From: a virus
Length of the DNA: 21,370 bases
Strand: one strand, 5' to 3'
IMG/VR virus record: IMGVR_UViG_3300031280_000163
Span: 1-21,370 of that record
In this document: in pieces, positions 7,861 through 21,370 of the stretch
Layout: every line of letters starts with the position of its first letter
Numbering within the stretch: position 1 is the first letter of the stretch
The notes under the pieces: generated by a model
The model's input: the letters and a program-made list of their open reading frames with translations, nothing else
Told to the model about the DNA's origin: nothing
Databases searched by the model: none
Translations under genes and position numbers: made by a program

Positions 7861-9198
7861 TTAATCATAATCTATTCCGTAAGTTCGAATTCCATCGTAT
7901 CCATCACTGGCTATTAAAATATTTGGAGCCCCACTCCATATAAATAATCGTTCAACTATACCTAAAGCCTGTGACCCAATGTAATCAAGGTCATCATTAA
8001 CATTGCGTTTATATCTAAGAACATTTGAACCGTCAATATAATAAAGATAATTTGCAGCAGAATGATAAGCTGGATGTTTCCGAACCCCCGACCCCTGACG
8101 ATATTCTTGAGTAAGAGTTCCTGAGCTATGAGAATAGACTATTGCTCCATCTGCGTCCGAACCCACAAATAACAAACCACTATTACTATCATAAATAATA
8201 CTGTTTCCAACAAATGTTCCTGTGTTATCGTTATCAACTCTAGTAAGAACTCCAGTAGTTATATTTCTTGTAAAAGAAGTGATGCCATTACTACCCACGA
8301 CAAAAAGATACCCATCTACATAAACACCTTTATAATAAAATGCAAGATCAGCATTATATACATCTTTGAATGTTAAATTACCATTAATATCATATGTAAA
8401 ACTATGTATTCCATATGTACTAAGGCCAAACGGCTGTGTAACAAATATAAGATTACTTCCATCACCAAAAATATGATGCGCACCAGTCTCAGTGCTAGCC
8501 TGTATAACGTCTGCCGCCACCATTACTCCTGTTACTGTATTATAAGTATATGACCTCAAATAATTAACATCAGCAACACTATCTTGAGAAGTTAAAAATA
8601 ATTTACTACTTTGAGTCCAAACATCAATAAAACCCTCATTCCCAGGTGCGCCCGCAGTATTTTTTAACGTTAACATTCCTAAAGTAGATACATCATAACA
8701 ACGAACCCCAAATTCCATACAAGCAATAAAAACCCAATGCTGATTCCCATGAAGCCCCCAATGATAACCGGCCTGATCATCATGATCTCCGGCTGTAAGT
8801 ACACCTGTGCCTGGGGTACCATAATTTCTGAAATTACTTAAACGATCTTTTGCTACGCTATATCGCCAATCAAATTTATTATCTACAGCTGCTGTAAACA
8901 TATCCCCAAGACTGTAAAGTTCAAGATCCCACTTACCAAGATCAGTATCAATGTAATTAGCATCAATAGTAATAGTAGTATCTGTACGGGCCGTAACAGT
9001 ATGTGTACCGTTATAATATGTTGAATCTGTTATAGTTATACGACTACCAATTACAACATCACTATTAAGTGCGCCATGTAACATTGCTTTACCCACCGAA
9101 TCAGTAACCCAATCAAATAGCCCATTCTCACTATCCTCAGAAAGAACTACATCAACATCAGACAGTGCAAATGTATCTGTATCTGGAACTTTAGCCAT
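7861..9198 (-). CDS. Tail-associated beta-propeller protein (putative adhesin)
   Basis: This 445-residue protein starts MAKVPDTDTFALSDV, an N-terminus of a kind seen on Bacteroidota phage tail proteins. Residues 45-92 form a small beta module around TYYNGTHTV. From about 160 to the end, seven units recur every 41-50 residues, each with an aromatic-rich strand and a turn: GVRCYDVSTLG (164), LRSYTYNTVTG (214), GIHSFTYDING (263), GITSFTRNITTG (305), IVYSHSSG (353), VLRYKRNVND (393) and GIRTYGIDYD (436). This is the pattern of a beta-propeller of about seven blades, like lactonase/YVTN-type propellers. No catalytic residues can be assigned. Its place beside the S74 fibre, with an 8-nt overlap (ATGGCTAA), suggests a distal receptor-binding or structural role, which is inference. 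Confidence 0.75.
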   Translation of the reverse strand: MAKVPDTDTFALSDVDVVLSEDSENGLFDWVTDSVGKAMLHGALNSDVVIGSRITITDSTYYNGTHTVTARTDTTITIDANYIDTDLGKWDLELYSLGDMFTAAVDNKFDWRYSVAKDRLSNFRNYGTPGTGVLTAGDHDDQAGYHWGLHGNQHWVFIACMEFGVRCYDVSTLGMLTLKNTAGAPGNEGFIDVWTQSSKLFLTSQDSVADVNYLRSYTYNTVTGVMVAADVIQASTETGAHHIFGDGSNLIFVTQPFGLSTYGIHSFTYDINGNLTFKDVYNADLAFYYKGVYVDGYLFVVGSNGITSFTRNITTGVLTRVDNDNTGTFVGNSIIYDSNSGLLFVGSDADGAIVYSHSSGTLTQEYRQGSGVRKHPAYHSAANYLYYIDGSNVLRYKRNVNDDLDYIGSQALGIVERLFIWSGAPNILIASDGYDGIRTYGIDYD

Positions 9199-12100
9199 TT
9201 TCTTCTAATTCTTTAACTCTTAATTTTAAACCCACAATCTCTTTTCGAAGTTTATCTTCAATAGTATCAACTTTACAATTTAATCCTTGTACACCGGCTA
9301 TAGCTAATGCAGACATCCTACCATACGAAAGCGATAAAAAACCGTCACTATCGTCTTTAACAAGCTCAGGAAAGAGTTTTTGTACTTCCTGGGCGATAAA
9401 TCCCGTATGAATATAATCATCACTTTTATCTTTCCATCTGTAAGTAACAGGATTTAATTTCAATACTGATTCAAGTCCATCAGGTACAGTTTGATAAACA
9501 TCTTTTAATCTTTTATCAGAACTCTGAACAAAATCATGTGCCCACCAATCGCCGTCTGAACGAAGCTCGGCAATCTTTATAGCACTTCTGTACCCTCTGA
9601 ATAATGTATAACTTGTTCCGGATGCTGCATCAATATCTACTCTAATACCATGCCCAGTTGGGTTATCTTGATCAAAATAGGCTACATATTGAGTCCCTAT
9701 ATCATGATACACGTATAGTTTCGCAGTAGCATTTATGGCGCCTATATCGATATCCCCACTAGCATATACTGATCCACCGACATATAAATCATAAGTAGCA
9801 GAAGGAGTCGCAGTTATTCCTACATGACCAGTAATTCCATTAATTTCTAACCCTTGTGTTGATATATTGCTACCAAATCTCATATTTTTAAAAGCAGGCC
9901 CCGTTTCGTCATAATTATATATTGAAATCCAATCTGCTACATTCATAGCCCATGTACATCGTTGACTAGTATCAGTAGTATTATAGAAAACTGGACTTCC
10001 AACAGTAGTTTTTAATGACCCGGCTATATGTAAAGTGGTATCATCCCATGTAAGATTAACTGATCCACCAAATGCGCCACTATCATTAAACTGAATATGA
10101 GTATCCGATCCAGCAGGATTAGCTGCCCCACCAGCAGGAACTGTCCAGTTTCCTACACCATTCATATATTGTGTAGCTATATTTGAAAGTTTTTTTAGAA
10201 ATCCATGTTTAACAATGGTAGCATTCAGCGTAGTGGTATCACTACTAGTATGGTAAGTAGCTGAATCCATCGCATGAGCAGTAGGAGTTCTAGCATTAGA
10301 TAAACGCGCATCATTACCCACACAAAATGTATAAACAGCTGTTCCAAATGTTCCGGTAGTTATTAATCCTGCGGTGCCTGTAATAAGAGGAAGATTAGCT
10401 GCAGCTCCAATATGACCTGTATTACTTATCCCTCCATGTGAATGGGCAGTAGGCGCATCCCCAACATACATAAAAGTACCATTACTACAAGCAGCATTAA
10501 AATTAGTTTTAGTATCTGATATTCTTCCCCCTAAAACTGAAGGAGTAGTACCAAGATTCCCAAAATTAAATACTCCCCAAGATAAATCTGTACCATCTGT
10601 TCTAAGTAAATGAGTAGCAGTTGCAGATATATTTAAAACATTCCATTGTGTAGAGTTATCCCCGTATATTATATCACCTCTTGTAACGGCTACATTTGCT
10701 GTATCAGTATGTGTCGCACTTAGTAAAGCATGGTTAGTTCCGCCTGTAGGAATTGGAGTATTTATCCAAGCAGATCCACTCCACTTCATTATATCATCTG
10801 TAGCTAATGAAGTAATAGTAATTATCTGACCATTAAAATAATCATCAACATACCCTTTATCTGGAATCCAACGATCACCAAGAGACATTCCATCAGTTTT
10901 ATAATCAGCAGCATACTGAAATCCTATTGAACTAATAGCATCAGTAATTGTCATAGCAGATGCCGTAATAGCTATAACTTTCTGATTAGAAGTATCATCT
11001 AATGTTAAATTTACCAAAGCATCATCAACATATAATGATCCATATCCCCCAGTATAATCAGCTCCAGACCATGAAACAGTATTAAATGATTTCCCGCTAT
11101 CACTAATTTCAGCATAAACAGATCCTGTAGCGGCATGTACCGATTCCACCCTCCATCTATAAGTGTTATTACCAGTAATAGTCCAGTTTCCGGTAAGTGT
11201 ACCGCTAAAATTGTTAATAGCATATCCAGAAGGATCAATAAATTCTACTGCATCAGGAGTTGAATTAACCATTACTAACCATCCTCCCACACCGCCTGTC
11301 CAGTCCGCAGGAGTATCGGTATCTCCAATGAATGTTGCAGATCCTACAGAACTTGTAAGATCATATGTTGTTGCACTATTTTTAAAATACAACTTATCAT
11401 CAGCGGAATCCATATAAATAAATCCCTGCGTCGCAGCAGGCGCTGGCAATCCTGTAAGAGCGCGTTCACTGATTAATAATTGACCGCCACCATATACGGT
11501 AAATACTTCCGTACTATTATTTTTAAATATTGCTACTTTTGATCCTTCAGTCGAAAGAGTATTTTCAGTATCAAAACTATAACCATAGGCCCCCGCCCCA
11601 TCACTTACATAAGGCTGGAATATCATCTGATCGGCACCGCCTGTGTAAATAAGAACTTGTCCACCAGATGTAATTGTTACATGATCAGTTGCATTCGCTG
11701 CATATATATTATAGGCATAGAATTCACCGTCAAAATTTAATCTATTAACAGCACTAATAGGATTGGTTGCACTTGAATCAAAAGCCCCTGTAGTCTGAGC
11801 AGAGTACGGAGCATAGGCTGTTCCGTCCCAGTCAAGAATATTATCCGTCGGAACTGTACCTGGGGGAATTGACCACCCACCATCCGCATTAAGATAATTA
11901 TCTGTTCCACCACCGGATTGAGGGAAAGTCATTGTTGGGGTAGTACCGGCTGTGAATGTAATGAAATTAGTATATGCAGTACCATCAGTATCATATGCAG
12001 CCAAACTATAAGTATTATCAACACTGGTTTGAGTTCCGATAACTTTAGTAGAAGTAATAACTGTATCACCCTGAAGATTTATTAATCCTGTCCCTGTATA

Positions 12101-13012
12101 AAATGAAATATTAGAATTGTTTCTACCTATTAAGCTTATTCCTTCTGCATTTACAGTAACAGCTCCAAGATAATTAGAACTCGTTCCGATATTAAGTGCA
12201 TATGTTCCTGCTACAGCATTAGTTAAGTCAGTTGTTCCTGTTAATGGTCCGCCCAGTTTAACAACACCCGCAGACTCAGCTAATCCATTAGTAAATGTAT
12301 ACGAAACACTACTTACAGCAGCATCAACATACCCTTTATCTGGTATCCATCTAGCACCAATAGCTGCGCCATTAATCGAATAATCAGCAGCATACTGCAT
12401 TCCTTTAGTATCTTGAGCATCTAATATCTGTATAAGTGACCCACTTATTGTTATAGACTTATCAACAGAACTGGCATCGGAAGCTTTTAATAATATAGAA
12501 TTTTTACCTATTGATATTTGGGTCTGCGCCCCGGTCCAATTATCATTAGCGTAAACTTTTAAATCAACAGAAGCATCTGAATGAAAAGCAAGTTTAGCAG
12601 AATCAGTTCCTGTCCAAATACTTCCTAGCGTTAATTTGTTGGTAGGATCTCCATATACATTAGTAGCTTGAGTTAATGTACCTCCCAATTTAACAGCGCC
12701 GGCAGTTTCTGTTAACCCGTTCGAAAATGAATAAGTCGGTAAAGCGCCAATAGCAGCATAAACAGCAGCAGAAGTGGGCATATGTGTGGCATCATTGGTT
12801 AGAGTCCCCTCAACTGTATTCACAGCTGAGCTGCCGGTCATGATTGCGTAGACGCCTGGAGTTGCCCCGCGTAAGCATATTCCTTGTGATGAAAAGTCTC
12901 CGTCGATCACAACGTCCCCAGCTGCTTCAAAAGCAGTATCACCAGCATTCCTTCTGACGAAGTTTCCTGCCGGTATGTCTAATTGTGTCGGTATTGATCC
13001 AAATCTAGCCAT
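9191..13012 (-). CDS. Long tail fibre with C-terminal peptidase S74 intramolecular chaperone
   Basis: This 1273-residue protein is rich in Thr, Ser, Gly and Ala, as beta-structured phage fibres are. An N-terminal part leads to two copies of an NGLxExAGxVKLGG unit (about 98-111 and 242-255) and two copies of a module ending RWIPDKGYVD (221-230 and 714-723). A stretch with LLSATHTDT and GNDARLSNARTPTAH follows, both common in phage fibres. Residues from 1165 match the S74 autoprotease/chaperone: SDKRLK (Ser1165 and Lys1170, the spacing of the catalytic dyad), NPVTYRWK, GFIAQEVQKLFPE and a C-terminal coiled coil. The chaperone would trimerise the fibre and then cut itself off just before Ser1165. 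The fibre is probably host-recognising. It starts 9 nt after the previous gene. Confidence 0.9.
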   Translation of the reverse strand: MARFGSIPTQLDIPAGNFVRRNAGDTAFEAAGDVVIDGDFSSQGICLRGATPGVYAIMTGSSAVNTVEGTLTNDATHMPTSAAVYAAIGALPTYSFSNGLTETAGAVKLGGTLTQATNVYGDPTNKLTLGSIWTGTDSAKLAFHSDASVDLKVYANDNWTGAQTQISIGKNSILLKASDASSVDKSITISGSLIQILDAQDTKGMQYAADYSINGAAIGARWIPDKGYVDAAVSSVSYTFTNGLAESAGVVKLGGPLTGTTDLTNAVAGTYALNIGTSSNYLGAVTVNAEGISLIGRNNSNISFYTGTGLINLQGDTVITSTKVIGTQTSVDNTYSLAAYDTDGTAYTNFITFTAGTTPTMTFPQSGGGTDNYLNADGGWSIPPGTVPTDNILDWDGTAYAPYSAQTTGAFDSSATNPISAVNRLNFDGEFYAYNIYAANATDHVTITSGGQVLIYTGGADQMIFQPYVSDGAGAYGYSFDTENTLSTEGSKVAIFKNNSTEVFTVYGGGQLLISERALTGLPAPAATQGFIYMDSADDKLYFKNSATTYDLTSSVGSATFIGDTDTPADWTGGVGGWLVMVNSTPDAVEFIDPSGYAINNFSGTLTGNWTITGNNTYRWRVESVHAATGSVYAEISDSGKSFNTVSWSGADYTGGYGSLYVDDALVNLTLDDTSNQKVIAITASAMTITDAISSIGFQYAADYKTDGMSLGDRWIPDKGYVDDYFNGQIITITSLATDDIMKWSGSAWINTPIPTGGTNHALLSATHTDTANVAVTRGDIIYGDNSTQWNVLNISATATHLLRTDGTDLSWGVFNFGNLGTTPSVLGGRISDTKTNFNAACSNGTFMYVGDAPTAHSHGGISNTGHIGAAANLPLITGTAGLITTGTFGTAVYTFCVGNDARLSNARTPTAHAMDSATYHTSSDTTTLNATIVKHGFLKKLSNIATQYMNGVGNWTVPAGGAANPAGSDTHIQFNDSGAFGGSVNLTWDDTTLHIAGSLKTTVGSPVFYNTTDTSQRCTWAMNVADWISIYNYDETGPAFKNMRFGSNISTQGLEINGITGHVGITATPSATYDLYVGGSVYASGDIDIGAINATAKLYVYHDIGTQYVAYFDQDNPTGHGIRVDIDAASGTSYTLFRGYRSAIKIAELRSDGDWWAHDFVQSSDKRLKDVYQTVPDGLESVLKLNPVTYRWKDKSDDYIHTGFIAQEVQKLFPELVKDDSDGFLSLSYGRMSALAIAGVQGLNCKVDTIEDKLRKEIVGLKLRVKELEENG
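10843..10918 (-). repeat. Direct repeat copy 1 inside the fibre gene
   Basis: This stretch is similar to 12322-12397 at a constant offset of 1479 nt (493 codons) without indels. The first 22 and the last 18 bases are identical, and the middle is diverged. It encodes the module that ends in RWIPDKGYVD. Confidence 0.7.
12322..12397 (-). repeat. Direct repeat copy 2 inside the fibre gene
   Basis: This is the partner of 10843-10918, in the same frame and orientation. Both copies encode a QYAADY segment followed by RWIPDKGYVD, so this is an internal duplication of a fibre module. Confidence 0.7.
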
Positions 13013-13021
13013 TATTTTATT

Positions 13022-14788
13022 TTAATAAATTGTTGTACCATATAATTCCGCGCCATAAATTATTGTTTCAGGCAAAGGCGGTATTAATTCCTGTAAAGCA
13101 ATAGTTTGATTATATGCATTCATTATTGTAATATCTTCCTGTGTATATGTCGCAAAATCTGATTTCTCAATAGTTAATACAAACGGATTTAAATCAACTG
13201 TTGTTCCTTTTGCAGCACTTTCCGGGGGACCCACAGGTAAAGGCTCATTTCTGTATCCAACCACATAAAGAGATATTTTACCATTAACATCAGTTGTATC
13301 AGAATATTCCGTATCCTCTGTATCTGTAACTTTTACAGTAGCGCCAACCACTGCAGCACCATCTGAATCAACCACCTTCAAATCAAAACTAAACCAGAAT
13401 TTAAAAAGCGGCCTGTCTATAAGAGATGCAGGAGACCTAAATGGAGTTACATATTCATCAAGACTAGTTAAATTAAGAAAATCCACTACATCATCAGGGT
13501 CAGTATAACTCGGATGAATAGCATAATAAAGATTACCGTATCTTCCAGTAGTTGCATCTATATACACATTCTGGAGTTCTGCTAATTCAGGGTCATTCAA
13601 ATTTGCGTAATTCCAAGGAAATTGTAAACTAATGCGACCAACATTAGCATTCTTAACCCAATTCCCTACTACGCTTTGGTAAAAAGTTATAGTATATCCA
13701 CCAAGATGTGCATCCGTATCCTCCCAACTTTTAAACATCCAATAAAGAGAGGAACCATCTCTTGTTAAAAGACACTTGGAAAAACTATTAAGTTCGTTTA
13801 ATTTAAGACCTGTAACGATATGACAATCTGTGAGGTTGCCTCTTATTGTACTATAAGTCGCAGGAACCTGATCCCATCTTATTTGACAACGCTCATAAGT
13901 CAATCCCGCTAAATCACCAATACCATAGTGTGCCCCATAATAAATTATGGTTAAACCTTGAAACGGAATGGTCACTGCGTCATCCCAACTTATATACGCA
14001 TTAAGGATAAATATACCAGCACCATACTCAAAATAATCTTCAAAATAATCAGTAAGCCTAAGGTCGTCAACAAACTCACTAACAGTTTTATCATAAGTCG
14101 TATCATCGAATTCTATATAAAGACGACCTATTTCTATACCTTCCATCGAATCAATATATTCTCCAAGAATTTGAGGATGATAATACATCATCTCCCTATA
14201 ACCAAGTTGAGTATATGGAGTAGTAACTATAAAATCCTGTGTTTGATATCCCCATGAACTAGCACCATGACTCCATTTTGGACCGCTTGTACTAAAAACT
14301 ATCGGTACAGTGTCCATAGTCATCATCAATCCACCATTAGTATACCCTAAACTTGGTTTACCGCCTGTAGTTTCCCAATCACCAGAGTCATCAGCAATAA
14401 ATGCAGTATTGATAACAAAACTATCATAGTCTAGAACTTCCTCTACTGTCCAGCTACCATTGTAATTTGTACTGCCAGATATATCAATATCATCAGTCCA
14501 GAGGCAATGATCCGCTGAGATAACCTTAATCTTATTTCCGCTATCATAACTTTCAACACTGGTAAAACTTCCGATAATTTTATGATGAATCTTTATTGAC
14601 CTATTTGTTGAATCTGTAGTAATATTTACCTCATCTGCAATAGGACCAAAAGCACCACCGCTTCGAGTTACGGCTGCTCTTGTATAATATCCGGTAAAAT
14701 AATATGTCGTATCAGCAGCAAGACTTCCCCCTGCCTCAAGAGACAACGATAATATAGGTTTCTTTGTTTTCCAGACTCGAAATGCCAT
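13022..14788 (-). CDS. Tail structural protein with Ig/transthyretin-like C-terminal domain
   Basis: In this 588-residue protein, residues about 85-140 hold a small beta module around STNYNGSWTV and DDSGDW that also occurs in the propeller protein at 7861-9198. The middle (about 200-450) is rich in aromatic and beta-forming residues, with short repeated strands such as CQIRWDQV, DCHIVTGL and KCLLTRDG, and may form a parallel beta-helix; this is a visual impression. Near residues 475-515 the segment VVDSDGAAVVGATVKV then TTDVNGKISLYV matches the carboxypeptidase-regulatory or transthyretin-like fold common in surface and tail proteins. Its start shares TAATG with the upstream stop. The role is probably as a tail or fibre component; the receptor is unknown. 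Confidence 0.75.
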   Translation of the reverse strand: MAFRVWKTKKPILSLSLEAGGSLAADTTYYFTGYYTRAAVTRSGGAFGPIADEVNITTDSTNRSIKIHHKIIGSFTSVESYDSGNKIKVISADHCLWTDDIDISGSTNYNGSWTVEEVLDYDSFVINTAFIADDSGDWETTGGKPSLGYTNGGLMMTMDTVPIVFSTSGPKWSHGASSWGYQTQDFIVTTPYTQLGYREMMYYHPQILGEYIDSMEGIEIGRLYIEFDDTTYDKTVSEFVDDLRLTDYFEDYFEYGAGIFILNAYISWDDAVTIPFQGLTIIYYGAHYGIGDLAGLTYERCQIRWDQVPATYSTIRGNLTDCHIVTGLKLNELNSFSKCLLTRDGSSLYWMFKSWEDTDAHLGGYTITFYQSVVGNWVKNANVGRISLQFPWNYANLNDPELAELQNVYIDATTGRYGNLYYAIHPSYTDPDDVVDFLNLTSLDEYVTPFRSPASLIDRPLFKFWFSFDLKVVDSDGAAVVGATVKVTDTEDTEYSDTTDVNGKISLYVVGYRNEPLPVGPPESAAKGTTVDLNPFVLTIEKSDFATYTQEDITIMNAYNQTIALQELIPPLPETIIYGAELYGTTIY

Positions 14789-17183: not shown

Positions 17184-17410
17184 TATGATTTGATTATAAG
17201 CTTCCCTTCCAGTCTGGCTTTTTCGTCGGCTGTGAACCAAGCATCCACATTGGCATTAGCCAGGATATCCAGAATCATCTTCCGGTTCCACAATTCCATC
17301 CAACTTAAGTTACCGCTCAAAGATCCTTGCTGGTGAATCCCGAACGTATCGTGATTGGCCTGCTTGGTAACATCGCGAGCATATCGTTCTTCTGCTGTTT
17401 GATTAGCCAT
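17183..17410 (-). CDS. Small hypothetical protein in the virion module
   Basis: This 75-residue protein is of unknown family. The N-terminal half is polar and charged (MANQTAEERYARDV). The middle has SGNLSWMELWNRKMILDILAN, likely a helix, and the rest (DAWFTADEKARLEGKL) is also helical. It starts with the M-A pair seen in most neighbouring virion genes, overlaps the end of the homing endonuclease gene by 8 nt (ATGGCTAA) and overlaps the next start by 1 nt. A virion or assembly role is inference from context. Confidence 0.65.
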   Translation of the reverse strand: MANQTAEERYARDVTKQANHDTFGIHQQGSLSGNLSWMELWNRKMILDILANANVDAWFTADEKARLEGKLIIKS

Positions 17411-17921
17411 TTGTTTTTATTTTTTTAAAAGTTAATCCTTTTGCGTGATTACATTCTCCAGTTAAAACACGGTGAATAGCCGCTCTATGAACACCACAGA
17501 TCCTAGCCGCCTCCGTCATAGATGAATGAAAAGATTTAAACTCGCCTGTTTTGTAATCGTATACATCAATTAATACCGGTTTCATCCCGGCGTTTGGTGA
17601 TTTGTGTTTTAATCCTATACGAAATGCATGTAATATATTTTCAGATCGTGTAGACCACTCCAAATTAGATTTATCATTATTAGCTTTATTACCGTCCTTA
17701 TGATTGACTTCATGCTTATTTTCGGGGTTAGGAATGAAAGCTGCAGCAACTAATCTAGCAATATATTTCTGATGTCGTTTTCCATATTTCTGTAAAACTA
17801 CCCTATGATAACCTAAATAGTGTATAAGCGGCTTCAAATATAGTTTTCTTCTTAAACTATATACCCTCCCATCAGATATAACTTCATAGTCCTCAAATCC
17901 TTCTATTACTTTTTTCTCCAT
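17403..17921 (-). CDS. HNH homing endonuclease (free-standing, NUMOD4-HNH-NUMOD1)
   Basis: This 172-residue protein has the architecture of phage homing endonucleases. A NUMOD4-type segment (about 7-22, GFEDYEVISDGRVYSL) comes first. The HNH core is at about 50-90, with ARLVAAAF, then HEVNHKDGNKANND (H70, H74, D76, N78) and NLEWST (86-91). A C-terminal NUMOD1/helix-turn-helix DNA-binding module (about 116-168) holds TEAARICGVHRAAIHRVL. Such enzymes cut the cognate site in phages lacking the gene and so spread it by repair. It sits between two virion genes, 11 nt after the upstream stop and 8 nt into the next start. Unlike its virion neighbours it does not start with M-A, which fits a later insertion. 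Confidence 0.92.
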   Translation of the reverse strand: MEKKVIEGFEDYEVISDGRVYSLRRKLYLKPLIHYLGYHRVVLQKYGKRHQKYIARLVAAAFIPNPENKHEVNHKDGNKANNDKSNLEWSTRSENILHAFRIGLKHKSPNAGMKPVLIDVYDYKTGEFKSFHSSMTEAARICGVHRAAIHRVLTGECNHAKGLTFKKIKTNG

Positions 17922-18709: not shown

Positions 18710-21370
18710 CTACTTATTTTCCTGACGAAACTTTTTGACCTGACCGCCTGTGAGACCCTGCCTCTTACCTTTTTCTACGGCAGCTTTATCCTGACGGGCT
18801 TTTTCCCATGCGTCAGCGTCAAACATTTCGTGTATTTCAACCCCCGAATCATAATCCGGATCATATATACCCATACCCCGACGTACCGGCTTATCGGTCT
18901 CTCCGGCTGCTATGGCTTTGATATCATCAACGATATCAAATATCTGCTTAGCTTGGACCCCACATATCTGCCCCACGTGCTTACCAAGCTTCACGAGTTC
19001 ATCATTTCTTTTATCAATATCGCCCTCTTTATGATAGGCGGATGCGTTAACTAACTCATTAGCTATATTCTTTATCATCCCAACTATCGGTGACATAGTT
19101 TGCTTGTCGGCCCAAGGCTCCTTTCTAACAATAGATCCTATTACATCAGCCACTCTACCAAAATATGCTAAACCGCGAGTGTTACCAAGAGCAGCTGCCC
19201 ATACCAATTCATTCTTACCGGCCTTCTCTTCCGGATCTAGCATTAAACCATTTTCAGCCAGATTATACATAACCCCCATCAACACATGAGATAACATGAA
19301 ATTCTTAAAGTGTATCCCAGCGGCAGCCATATTACCTTGCTTAGCTGCTCGATATGTCAAATCAAGAGATTGAGTAGCTACCCTGTGAATCTGCCCAGCA
19401 CCTGAAGTAAACATGGCCATGGACCGGTTCAATGGATGACCGGTTCTCCATTTAGATATGTTGGAGATCCTGGTTGACTGCTGCGTAGCTTCACTCATTA
19501 ATGTCCATGTCTCAATGAACGGCTGCATAATTTTATCAAGCTCAGTCTCTTTAGTGGTATCATTTTCCTTAGCTAACCTTTCGGCTTCTTTATTTGCTTT
19601 GCTCCAGGATGTACCGGCTTTCCTCATCTTATCCATTACATACGCACCGCCGGCATTAACAATTGGAAACCGGTCACCGTACTTAATATTAGAAGATGCT
19701 ATCCGATCAATCTTATCTGCCGGTATAATATTAAACATTCGCTGAAGATTAATTCGTGCCCTCTGGCCAGCCTTTTTAAATAGGTTATCAGTATACTTAT
19801 AACTATCCCGCCTCCGAACAAAGTTCTGATCAGCATCCAGGGGAGCATGTCCCCTATCCGCTACAAACGGTTGCTTCTTCAGATACTGCTTAAGATCATA
19901 CCCTCCCGTGGTCATTAACATCTTTGCTATCCCAGTTCCCCAGTGGTAAGGGTCCATGTCAAGTAAATACATTGCAGAAGAAATAGTCTGCTTCAATCCA
20001 ACAGCCCTATTCAAATATAATATACCCTTACTCATCCGACGGATCATCCCATCCAATGGTTGCCATGTATCATTAAGTGTCTTCCCGGCCATTCTGTCAA
20101 TGAACCAATCGGCTGTTTCAACATAATTAGTACCGTGATGTTGGGCTATCATAGCCCGTACCTTAGGATCTTTGAATGTCTCATCAAGTCTCCTAACTGT
20201 CTCAGCCCAATTAGCATAATGCATTTGATCCTGCATATATTTATCATATACTTGCATCATATCCATATATACAAACGGATCTGTACTTCTACTACGCTCA
20301 ATATGATGATCACTGGTTACTCGGGTATGATATGATTGCTTATCCATTATGTCGCTGGAAGCTTTACTGAACTCGCCGGCCTCACGAATGAATGGCCAGT
20401 AATACTCCACCTCTCCCAAACTTACACCATTCTCAGCACGGTATACCGGTTGTACTTTAACATCATTATACTTATTCATATTGTCTCTCAGTTTTACTGC
20501 AAGCTTTTTAGTCCCGGGCTCTAGGAAACTTTCAAGTTGTTCAAATGATTTATCTGTCCAACCCATTCCATGTTCCTGAAATGGCTTACGAAATGTAACC
20601 TCTGCACCTTCCTGCTGTAAGGTTAACCATAGATGGCCAGCCTCATATTGACTAAGTGGTAATTCTTTCATTTTACCTTCTCCCAGGTCAATACTTAACA
20701 CATCCGGCTTTTGTATACGATTCTCTAAGCCTAAATCTTTTCTCCCCTTTTCTTTGTAACCAGTTAATTCATAAGCATCATTCATCATAGCTTTCTTAGT
20801 CTCAACAAATTCAGCCTTATCTCTGGCATGGGTTTCTTCTGACCTACTGACCCCGGGAATAAATTCCCTATTAAGTGGATCATTAAATACAATAGCCCTA
20901 TCGCCGGTCAGATCTCGAACAGAGGCCAGAGTACTTAAATAAGATTTGAAACTCATATCACCGGTTACCTTAAGTGGATGTCTGGTCTTTGGTTTCTTCT
21001 TCTCGGACCCGATCTGCATCTCTTCTCCAACCCTAGTAGCGTGTTCAAACATTAGATCCTTCCTGCGGTCTTTATCTTTTTTCCATGCTTCTCTCAATCT
21101 CTCAGAAGCCATACGATCTGTCTTCTTAAATTCTTTGATATTATCAAGCATAAACTTCAATTCCCCTGGTCCCTTAAGTCCAATAGTAGCATAATCTAGT
21201 TGCTCTTTCAATACTGCATCATCCAAAGTATAACCATTGGCATCAACATCCATGGGAATTTCTTCACCACGTTCTCTATCCTTAGTGTACCGCTCGGCCC
21301 GATCTTCAATCTTTCTTATTTCCTCCCAAGCTTTGGCACGAAATTCCGGATTAGTTAATCCCTCTTCTAC
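18710..21370 (-). CDS. Large virion or polyvalent-type protein, C-terminal part (partial)
   Basis: The frame is open to the right edge: no stop occurs between base 21370 and the stop at 18710, so an ATG at 21253 is probably internal and at least 886 residues belong to a longer protein. It is highly charged, with many Lys, Glu, Asp and Arg, and mostly helical. Around 19380-19500 a conserved-looking segment, WTLMSEATQQSTR then HPLNRSMAMF, resembles a motif found near the C-terminus of large polyvalent phage proteins. A hydrophobic stretch, MLSHVLMGVMYNLAENGLM (about 19245-19301), could be membrane-active. It could be an internal virion or ejection protein, or a polyvalent effector carried in the virion; I cannot tell which. 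Confidence 0.75.
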   Translation of the reverse strand, partial: VEEGLTNPEFRAKAWEEIRKIEDRAERYTKDRERGEEIPMDVDANGYTLDDAVLKEQLDYATIGLKGPGELKFMLDNIKEFKKTDRMASERLREAWKKDKDRRKDLMFEHATRVGEEMQIGSEKKKPKTRHPLKVTGDMSFKSYLSTLASVRDLTGDRAIVFNDPLNREFIPGVSRSEETHARDKAEFVETKKAMMNDAYELTGYKEKGRKDLGLENRIQKPDVLSIDLGEGKMKELPLSQYEAGHLWLTLQQEGAEVTFRKPFQEHGMGWTDKSFEQLESFLEPGTKKLAVKLRDNMNKYNDVKVQPVYRAENGVSLGEVEYYWPFIREAGEFSKASSDIMDKQSYHTRVTSDHHIERSRSTDPFVYMDMMQVYDKYMQDQMHYANWAETVRRLDETFKDPKVRAMIAQHHGTNYVETADWFIDRMAGKTLNDTWQPLDGMIRRMSKGILYLNRAVGLKQTISSAMYLLDMDPYHWGTGIAKMLMTTGGYDLKQYLKKQPFVADRGHAPLDADQNFVRRRDSYKYTDNLFKKAGQRARINLQRMFNIIPADKIDRIASSNIKYGDRFPIVNAGGAYVMDKMRKAGTSWSKANKEAERLAKENDTTKETELDKIMQPFIETWTLMSEATQQSTRISNISKWRTGHPLNRSMAMFTSGAGQIHRVATQSLDLTYRAAKQGNMAAAGIHFKNFMLSHVLMGVMYNLAENGLMLDPEEKAGKNELVWAAALGNTRGLAYFGRVADVIGSIVRKEPWADKQTMSPIVGMIKNIANELVNASAYHKEGDIDKRNDELVKLGKHVGQICGVQAKQIFDIVDDIKAIAAGETDKPVRRGMGIYDPDYDSGVEIHEMFDADAWEKARQDKAAVEKGKRQGLTGGQVKKFRQENK

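Follow-up and report, generated by a model that had tools for sequence, protein, structure and literature searches.

We propose that a 445-residue phage protein is probably an adhesin of the fibre tip, comparable to gp38, in which a conserved N-terminus that would dock on the fibre carries a head that is swapped between phages. It is encoded by an ATG-initiated open reading frame (ORF), confirmed as real, on the minus strand (9198-7861) of a tailed-phage fragment of 21,370 bases from a virus record; this whole stretch is referred to as the window. The gene is paired with a tail fibre gene, its N-terminal module is conserved, and the head is replaced across phages. The first-pass annotation had taken the protein for a tail adhesin, and the genomic context backs this view: the gene overlaps a Peptidase_S74 fibre gene by 8 nt, the S74 domain recurs in 35 of 38 genes upstream of module genes, and the head is variable. 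What is unusual, and was absent from that annotation, is that one plug-in N-terminus is common to proteins whose heads are unrelated; the propeller itself is ordinary.

The genes around the ORF comprise tail genes, replication genes (a helicase, a dNMP kinase, a primase and a DnaB-like helicase) and an HNH endonuclease. The same virus is present in a 13.6-kb contig from another sample, with 11,411 of 11,411 compared bases identical. Among viral contigs, the sole close relative of the propeller lies on a contig (L001/L003) that represents this virus itself, at 100% identity. No propeller relative was found in genome contigs, and no cultured phage close to the window virus was found. The HNH endonuclease gene (window 17403-17921) sits between structural genes, and a similar ORF occupies the same place in the relative L005. 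An 847-residue ORF (window 18710-21253) has no PHROG match; its counterpart in L005 (6191-12541) is an ORF of 2116 residues, of which it matches the C-terminal part. It may encode a virion protein that is internal or ejected. The coordinates of the features discussed below are collected in Table 1.

Table 1. Features of the 445-residue protein and of its presumed fibre partner, in window coordinates.
Feature	Position	Strand	Basis
Putative docking module, first half, residues 1-20, MAKVPDTDTFALSDVDVVLS	9139..9198	-	P5, F10 and V15 invariant in 37 module proteins; also in the alignment of 41 module rows
Insertion of ~75 residues with YYNGTHTV, residues 21-95	8914..9138	-	mostly gaps in the displayed alignment rows of relatives
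Putative docking module, second half, residues 96-127, end NFRNYG	8818..8913	-	phrog_21885 match
Head, likely seven-bladed beta-propeller, residues 128-445	7864..8817	-	internal repeats; low-confidence model, four-stranded units
Unit 1, residues 143-187	8638..8772	-	blade HMM; leave-one-out 49/500 shuffles as high
Unit 2, residues 188-239	8482..8637	-	leave-one-out 8/500
Unit 3, residues 240-287	8338..8481	-	leave-one-out 1/500
Unit 4, residues 288-329	8212..8337	-	leave-one-out 10/500
Unit 5, residues 330-373	8080..8211	-	leave-one-out 69/500
Unit 6, residues 374-414	7957..8079	-	leave-one-out 164/500, alone not significant; inside VIA-aligned stretch 373-445
Unit 7, residues 415-445, short	7864..7956	-	leave-one-out 24/500; inside VIA-aligned stretch, Z about 6
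8-nt overlap ATGGCTAA, end of fibre gene and start of propeller gene	9191..9198	-	sequence
Tail fibre, 1273 residues, presumed partner	9191..13012	-	Peptidase_S74 and tail-fibre families
S74 chaperone of endosialidase (intramolecular chaperone), fibre residues 1165-1219	9356..9520	-	PF13884, E 5.4e-16

The N-terminal module belongs to phrog_21885, a PHROG without name or function. This profile matches residues 96-128 of the window protein (E 1.6e-7) and all 37 module proteins scanned, the window protein and 36 others, at E 0.001. The usual module has 55 residues, starts with M.VP[DN]T.TF and has its NFRNYG near residue 55. In the window protein it is split by the insertion, which was not seen in the other modules compared, so that the NFRNYG-end motif lies at residue 116, versus 43-50 in most relatives. 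A PDTDTF-type N-terminus followed by a YNG beta module had been described here; both stretches are present, but they are not consecutive, as the YNG stretch sits inside the N-terminal module. A start of the PDTDTF pattern was found only in the window virus and in L045. By eye, a stretch of the 588-residue neighbour (window 13022-14788), STNYNGSWTV...DW, looks like the YNG insert. A YNG stretch common to both proteins was dropped as an idea, the best blastp match having an E of 2.9 and lying outside that stretch. A phmmer search for it elsewhere gave nothing convincing beyond the 445-residue protein itself.

A DNA pattern for KxxLxNFRNYG retrieved 71 viral stretches. Seventy of these are module ORFs, 68 by a scripted test and two truncated ones by eye; the last (L047) was rejected as a chance match. 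They yielded 44 distinct module proteins. The alignment used to define invariant columns, together with its Pfam and phrog_21885 scans, covers 37 of these, with seven left out; P5, F10, V15, L97 and D110 are invariant, as are K, L and NFRNYG, which were fixed in advance by the pattern used for the search. When applied to cellular genomes, this pattern also retrieved 71 stretches, only one of which, from a Spirochaetaceae MAG (L093), is a module ORF by the scripted test; many of the others resemble RecF N-termini. L093 has a FISUMP-like head by eye and is possibly a phage contig. In all 23 records of cultured phages that carry the module, a count with GenBank/RefSeq duplicates, the host is Cellulophaga or Maribacter. 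Among the matches listed in our literature search we found no description of the module or of the fibre/module pair, and none naming PHROG 21885.

An upstream partner, defined as a same-strand ORF within 300 nt, is present for 38 of the 44 distinct module proteins and absent for six. Peptidase_S74 is found in 35 of these 38 ORFs, the exceptions being L007, L030 and L039. The two genes lie at a spacing of -1 in 29 cases, every one of them a TAATG junction, and at -8 in two; spacings of 0, 1, 2, -29, 145, 237 and 259 occur once each. The S74-less L007 and L039 are among the 29 TAATG junctions.

The fibres of the cultured phages phi18:1, phi17:1 and phi12:1 likewise have no S74 match. They stop at ...NATDFKLGL, which aligns just before the S74 start (...ATNFILSSD), and here too a module gene comes next. 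In endosialidases, S74 is cut off at a Ser-Asp of this kind, so that maturation would leave both types of fibre, S74-bearing and S74-less, with the same kind of end. By eye, the ends of the fibres of L007 (...NATDFKLGL) and L039 (...EASDFKLKE) resemble the ...ATNFILSSD found at the S74 start elsewhere. The S74-less genes (L007, L039, L085, L160, L161) look as if they encoded an already trimmed fibre.

This arrangement suggests how the tip might be built. The upstream gene would produce a trimeric fibre that is folded by its S74 domain, as judged from the S74 family, and then loses this domain by cleavage. The conserved 55-residue module would dock on the tip exposed by S74 removal and present the likely seven-bladed propeller to the host, where it may bind a surface molecule, probably a glycan. 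The gene overlap could couple synthesis of the adhesin to that of the fibre. Across phages, the module is kept while the head is exchanged for unrelated folds.

The exchange itself is evident from comparison of the module proteins. We compared heads and modules in 39 of the 44, all of which start with M..VP[DN] (the other five were left out; the 41 module rows of Table 1 passed the same filter). The modules share a mean pairwise identity of 58% (minimum 37%). The 39 heads fall into 17 unrelated clusters (blastp, 1e-3): one of 22, one pair and fifteen singles. Pfam assigned 11 families across the 37 proteins scanned, with Fib_succ_major, DUF5122, fn3, BACON, Lactonase and LRR_4 in one protein each. 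Heads of propeller type by Pfam are the lactonase-type one (L083) and the DUF5122 one. Such retention of the module with replacement of the heads fits what is expected of host-range evolution.

The commonest heads (a cluster of 22 of 39; L007, L009, L023 and others) mostly consist of a domain of ~90 residues that contains two cysteines and has a YHNG...P.xGDxVY-like pattern. These heads have no Pfam family in common at E 0.01, and the domain is probably an unnamed small binding domain. In L037:3-1895, a beta-rich part is followed by the cysteine-containing head and then by DUF5122-type repeats, as seen by eye.

Closely related phages show the exchange in place. Between the Cellulophaga phages phi18:1 (L085) and phi17:1 (L160), the first 150 residues of the fibre are 95% identical, its last 60 residues 97%, the module 91% and the next two genes 99%, versus only 31% for the head. 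The heads of phi18:1 and phi12:1, in turn, are 99% identical and the last 60 residues of their fibres 72%. As these two phages have different isolation strains, the head alone does not track the strain of isolation. The nearest relative found for the window phage (L004/L005, an 83-kb record) is 85% identical in the 847-residue protein and 68% in the DnaB-like helicase. At the corresponding place its fibre has a different end, with no S74, and the gene there, of 248 residues, is unrelated; the gene after that (about 105 residues) is again 90% identical.

A gene behind a fibre could instead encode an assembly factor like T4 gp38 or the Tfa chaperone, which would fold or trimerise the fibre and then leave, with heads that vary along with the fibre tips. 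Chaperones, too, are encoded directly after fibres, according to the sections available of one account (PMC7289586). The GenBank notes of two cultured phages also speak against a place at the virion tip: in phi18:1, gp59-gp61 carry MS/MS evidence for presence in the virion and the module protein gp62 does not, and in phi40:1 the next gene, gp087, has an MS/MS note and gp086 none. A chaperone or a non-virion protein would be expected to give this result. A methylation study from 2026 found phi18:1 gp61 methylated in infected cells and gp59 in virions; its main text, as far as available, does not mention gp62, and its tables list methylated proteins (PMC13288928). The missing MS/MS note of gp62 could reflect small size and low copy number, or absence of the protein from the particle. 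We nevertheless regard an assembly factor as unlikely. The fibres in 35 of 38 cases already contain a chaperone of their own, S74, and the heads with a Pfam assignment have folds of a binding type (BACON, fn3, LRR, propeller). Moreover, the head differs between phi18:1 and phi17:1, whose fibre ends are nearly the same, and is nearly the same in phi18:1 and phi12:1, whose fibre ends differ more; a chaperone matched to the tip would be expected to show the opposite.

The head of the window protein is certainly repetitive. Residues 129-445 align to themselves with a Smith-Waterman score of 93, versus 36.1±6.2 in shuffled sequences, none of which reached 93 (0 of 60). The best self-alignment ends at a lag of 85 residues, equal to two units of ~42. 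Seven aromatic-rich units had been taken to make up a propeller. With borders set by hand and a leave-one-out HMM test against 500 shuffles per unit, four of the seven pass 5% alone and three fail, so that seven is the likely, not the proven, count as judged from the repeats. The short unit 7 may receive its outer strand from the segment that precedes unit 1. At least four repeats of about 40-50 residues, as in beta-propellers, are present, and we consider the head likely to be a seven-bladed propeller.

Structure prediction and a search against propellers, which the first-pass annotation had suggested as a check, pointed in this direction and did not demonstrate the fold. AlphaFold2 on the single sequence was useless (pLDDT 33). 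The alignment-based run had 43 rows, 41 over the N-terminal module only and two over the head; its low-confidence model (mean pLDDT 52.6) shows strands mostly in fours in residues 241-441, but no closed ring. VIA gave Z values of 5.5-6.4 among its best 50 matches, which fall almost exclusively on the last two units, and the matches listed are mostly propeller proteins, judged by title. Foldseek against the PDB reached TMq values of 0.09-0.16 among the best 50 matches; with a best E of 5.5e-3 and TMq of at most 0.16 among the matches listed, these were not trusted. Two matches below 1e-3 in the viral Foldseek library were also rejected (TMq 0.12, rmsd 30-49). A structure other than a propeller, which would have overturned the proposal, did not emerge. 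Nor could a metal or glycan site in the centre, a further check that the annotation had suggested, be placed on this model.

Sequence searches found no significant match of the head to a Pfam family (E 1), a PDB sequence (E 10), a GenBank phage (E 0.01) or a plasmid (E 0.1). At E 10, 12 GenBank phage records appear, eight matching the module (E 0.4-3) and four matching head residues (E 3-8); the latter, which include an annotated Roseobacter phage tail fibre, are too weak to be used. NCBIfam gave a single match, at E 0.09, far under its cut-off.

A second phage shows the same arrangement. L083, which is part of an 80.5-kb phage record, encodes an S74-ending fibre followed by a 391-residue module protein, with the same 8-nt overlap at the junction, ATGGATAG. 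Its head matches the family Lactonase, 7-bladed beta-propeller (PF10282; E 1.4e-5), and the only close relative we found of this propeller is its own contig. Over roughly the final 117 residues, the fibres of the window and L083 are 43% identical. The modules are 36-44% identical, in a match that extends to residue 187, and the rest of the heads is uncovered at E 1e-3. By eye, the replication genes of the 80.5-kb record differ from those of the window, and the 847-residue protein has no match there, in a search that lacked a positive control and so shows little. Two apparently unrelated phages thus share this arrangement, with heads of propeller type.

L083 also raises the question whether the head is a propeller enzyme, a lactonase or hydrolase acting on the surface polysaccharide of the host as a fibre depolymerase. 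Three of four lactonases are the best non-self matches of an HMM built from the window blades (E 0.006, 0.04 and 0.14), above 40 shuffles; the fourth has an E of 53. The lactonase locus L167 was left out, having no ORF of the chosen size. Among the VIA matches are two Bacteroides proteins resembling 6-phosphogluconolactonase, 3scy (Z 5.8) and 3fgb (Z 5.6). By the blade HMM, the head leans weakly toward the lactonase group. We judge an enzyme improbable, however. The unit size is similar to that of PF10282, but the L083 protein matches this family and the window head does not, as it matches no Pfam family at E 1, and the hhalign score against the four lactonases, 22.2, is on a par with those of the controls (20.3 for a fibre piece and 20.0 for the highest-scoring of six shuffles). 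Catalytic residues could not be assigned. The suggestion of a cell-surface enzyme found no footing in Pfam or NCBIfam, where no enzyme family matched the 445-residue protein.

It is more improbable still that the protein is a second, independent short fibre or a decoration protein on the baseplate or capsid, whose gene simply happens to lie next to that of the S74 fibre. Domains of the BACON, fn3 and Ig-like kinds do occur on capsid decoration proteins, but the overlap with the fibre gene is found in sipho-, podo- and myovirus types, which is difficult to account for with any partner other than the fibre. These morphologies are those given in the accessible sections of PMC11946311 and PMC8776804.

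The favoured reading, a tip adhesin, has a precedent in gp38 of T2-type phages and Salmonella phage S16. According to the parts available of two accounts (PMC12892980, PMC7289586), this is a separate small adhesin at the distal tip of the fibre, with an N-terminus that docks on the fibre and a variable receptor-binding part, and the S16 fibre loses a C-terminal intramolecular chaperone by autoproteolysis. The docking of the module protein would be analogous. Its 55-residue module differs in sequence from gp38, however, and its heads are whole unrelated folds, in contrast to the variable loops on one polyglycine scaffold in gp38. At E 1, the 445-residue protein matched neither the T2/S16 gp38 adhesin family nor the Tfa and T4 gp38 chaperone families in Pfam, which presumably holds gp38 and Tfa models. 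The module matches phrog_21885; the gene partner and the replacement of the head are described by the present analysis.

Endosialidase tailspikes are also propellers, with six blades. The receptor-binding protein Gp45 of phage phi11 contains a five-bladed one, in the portion of its description available (PMC4901313), which weakens the earlier remark that propellers are uncommon as receptor-binding heads of phages. In these proteins, as proposed for the window protein, a propeller serves as the receptor-binding head, but there it lies within the trimeric chain itself, whereas the window propeller would sit on a separate docking module. Both propellers as phage receptor heads and tip adhesins encoded after fibres are already known.

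Taken together, the module may be a general snap-on connector, used by many tailed-phage lineages to place almost any fold on a self-trimmed fibre tip, coupled through TAATG and freely swapped; we consider this wider proposal evenly balanced. The folds concerned are the propeller, LRR, Fn3, BACON, FISUMP and the common cysteine-containing domain of 90 residues, and the cultured phages infect flavobacteria. Little is known about receptor-binding proteins in Bacteroidota phages. Should the proposal hold, a short motif would suffice to locate the protein for host recognition in many phages not yet cultured, nature would have supplied a library of heads on a single connector, and a gene that helps decide host range would be predicted in the cultured Cellulophaga and Maribacter phages. 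The module may thus act as an interchangeable tip with which these phages grip their host cells.
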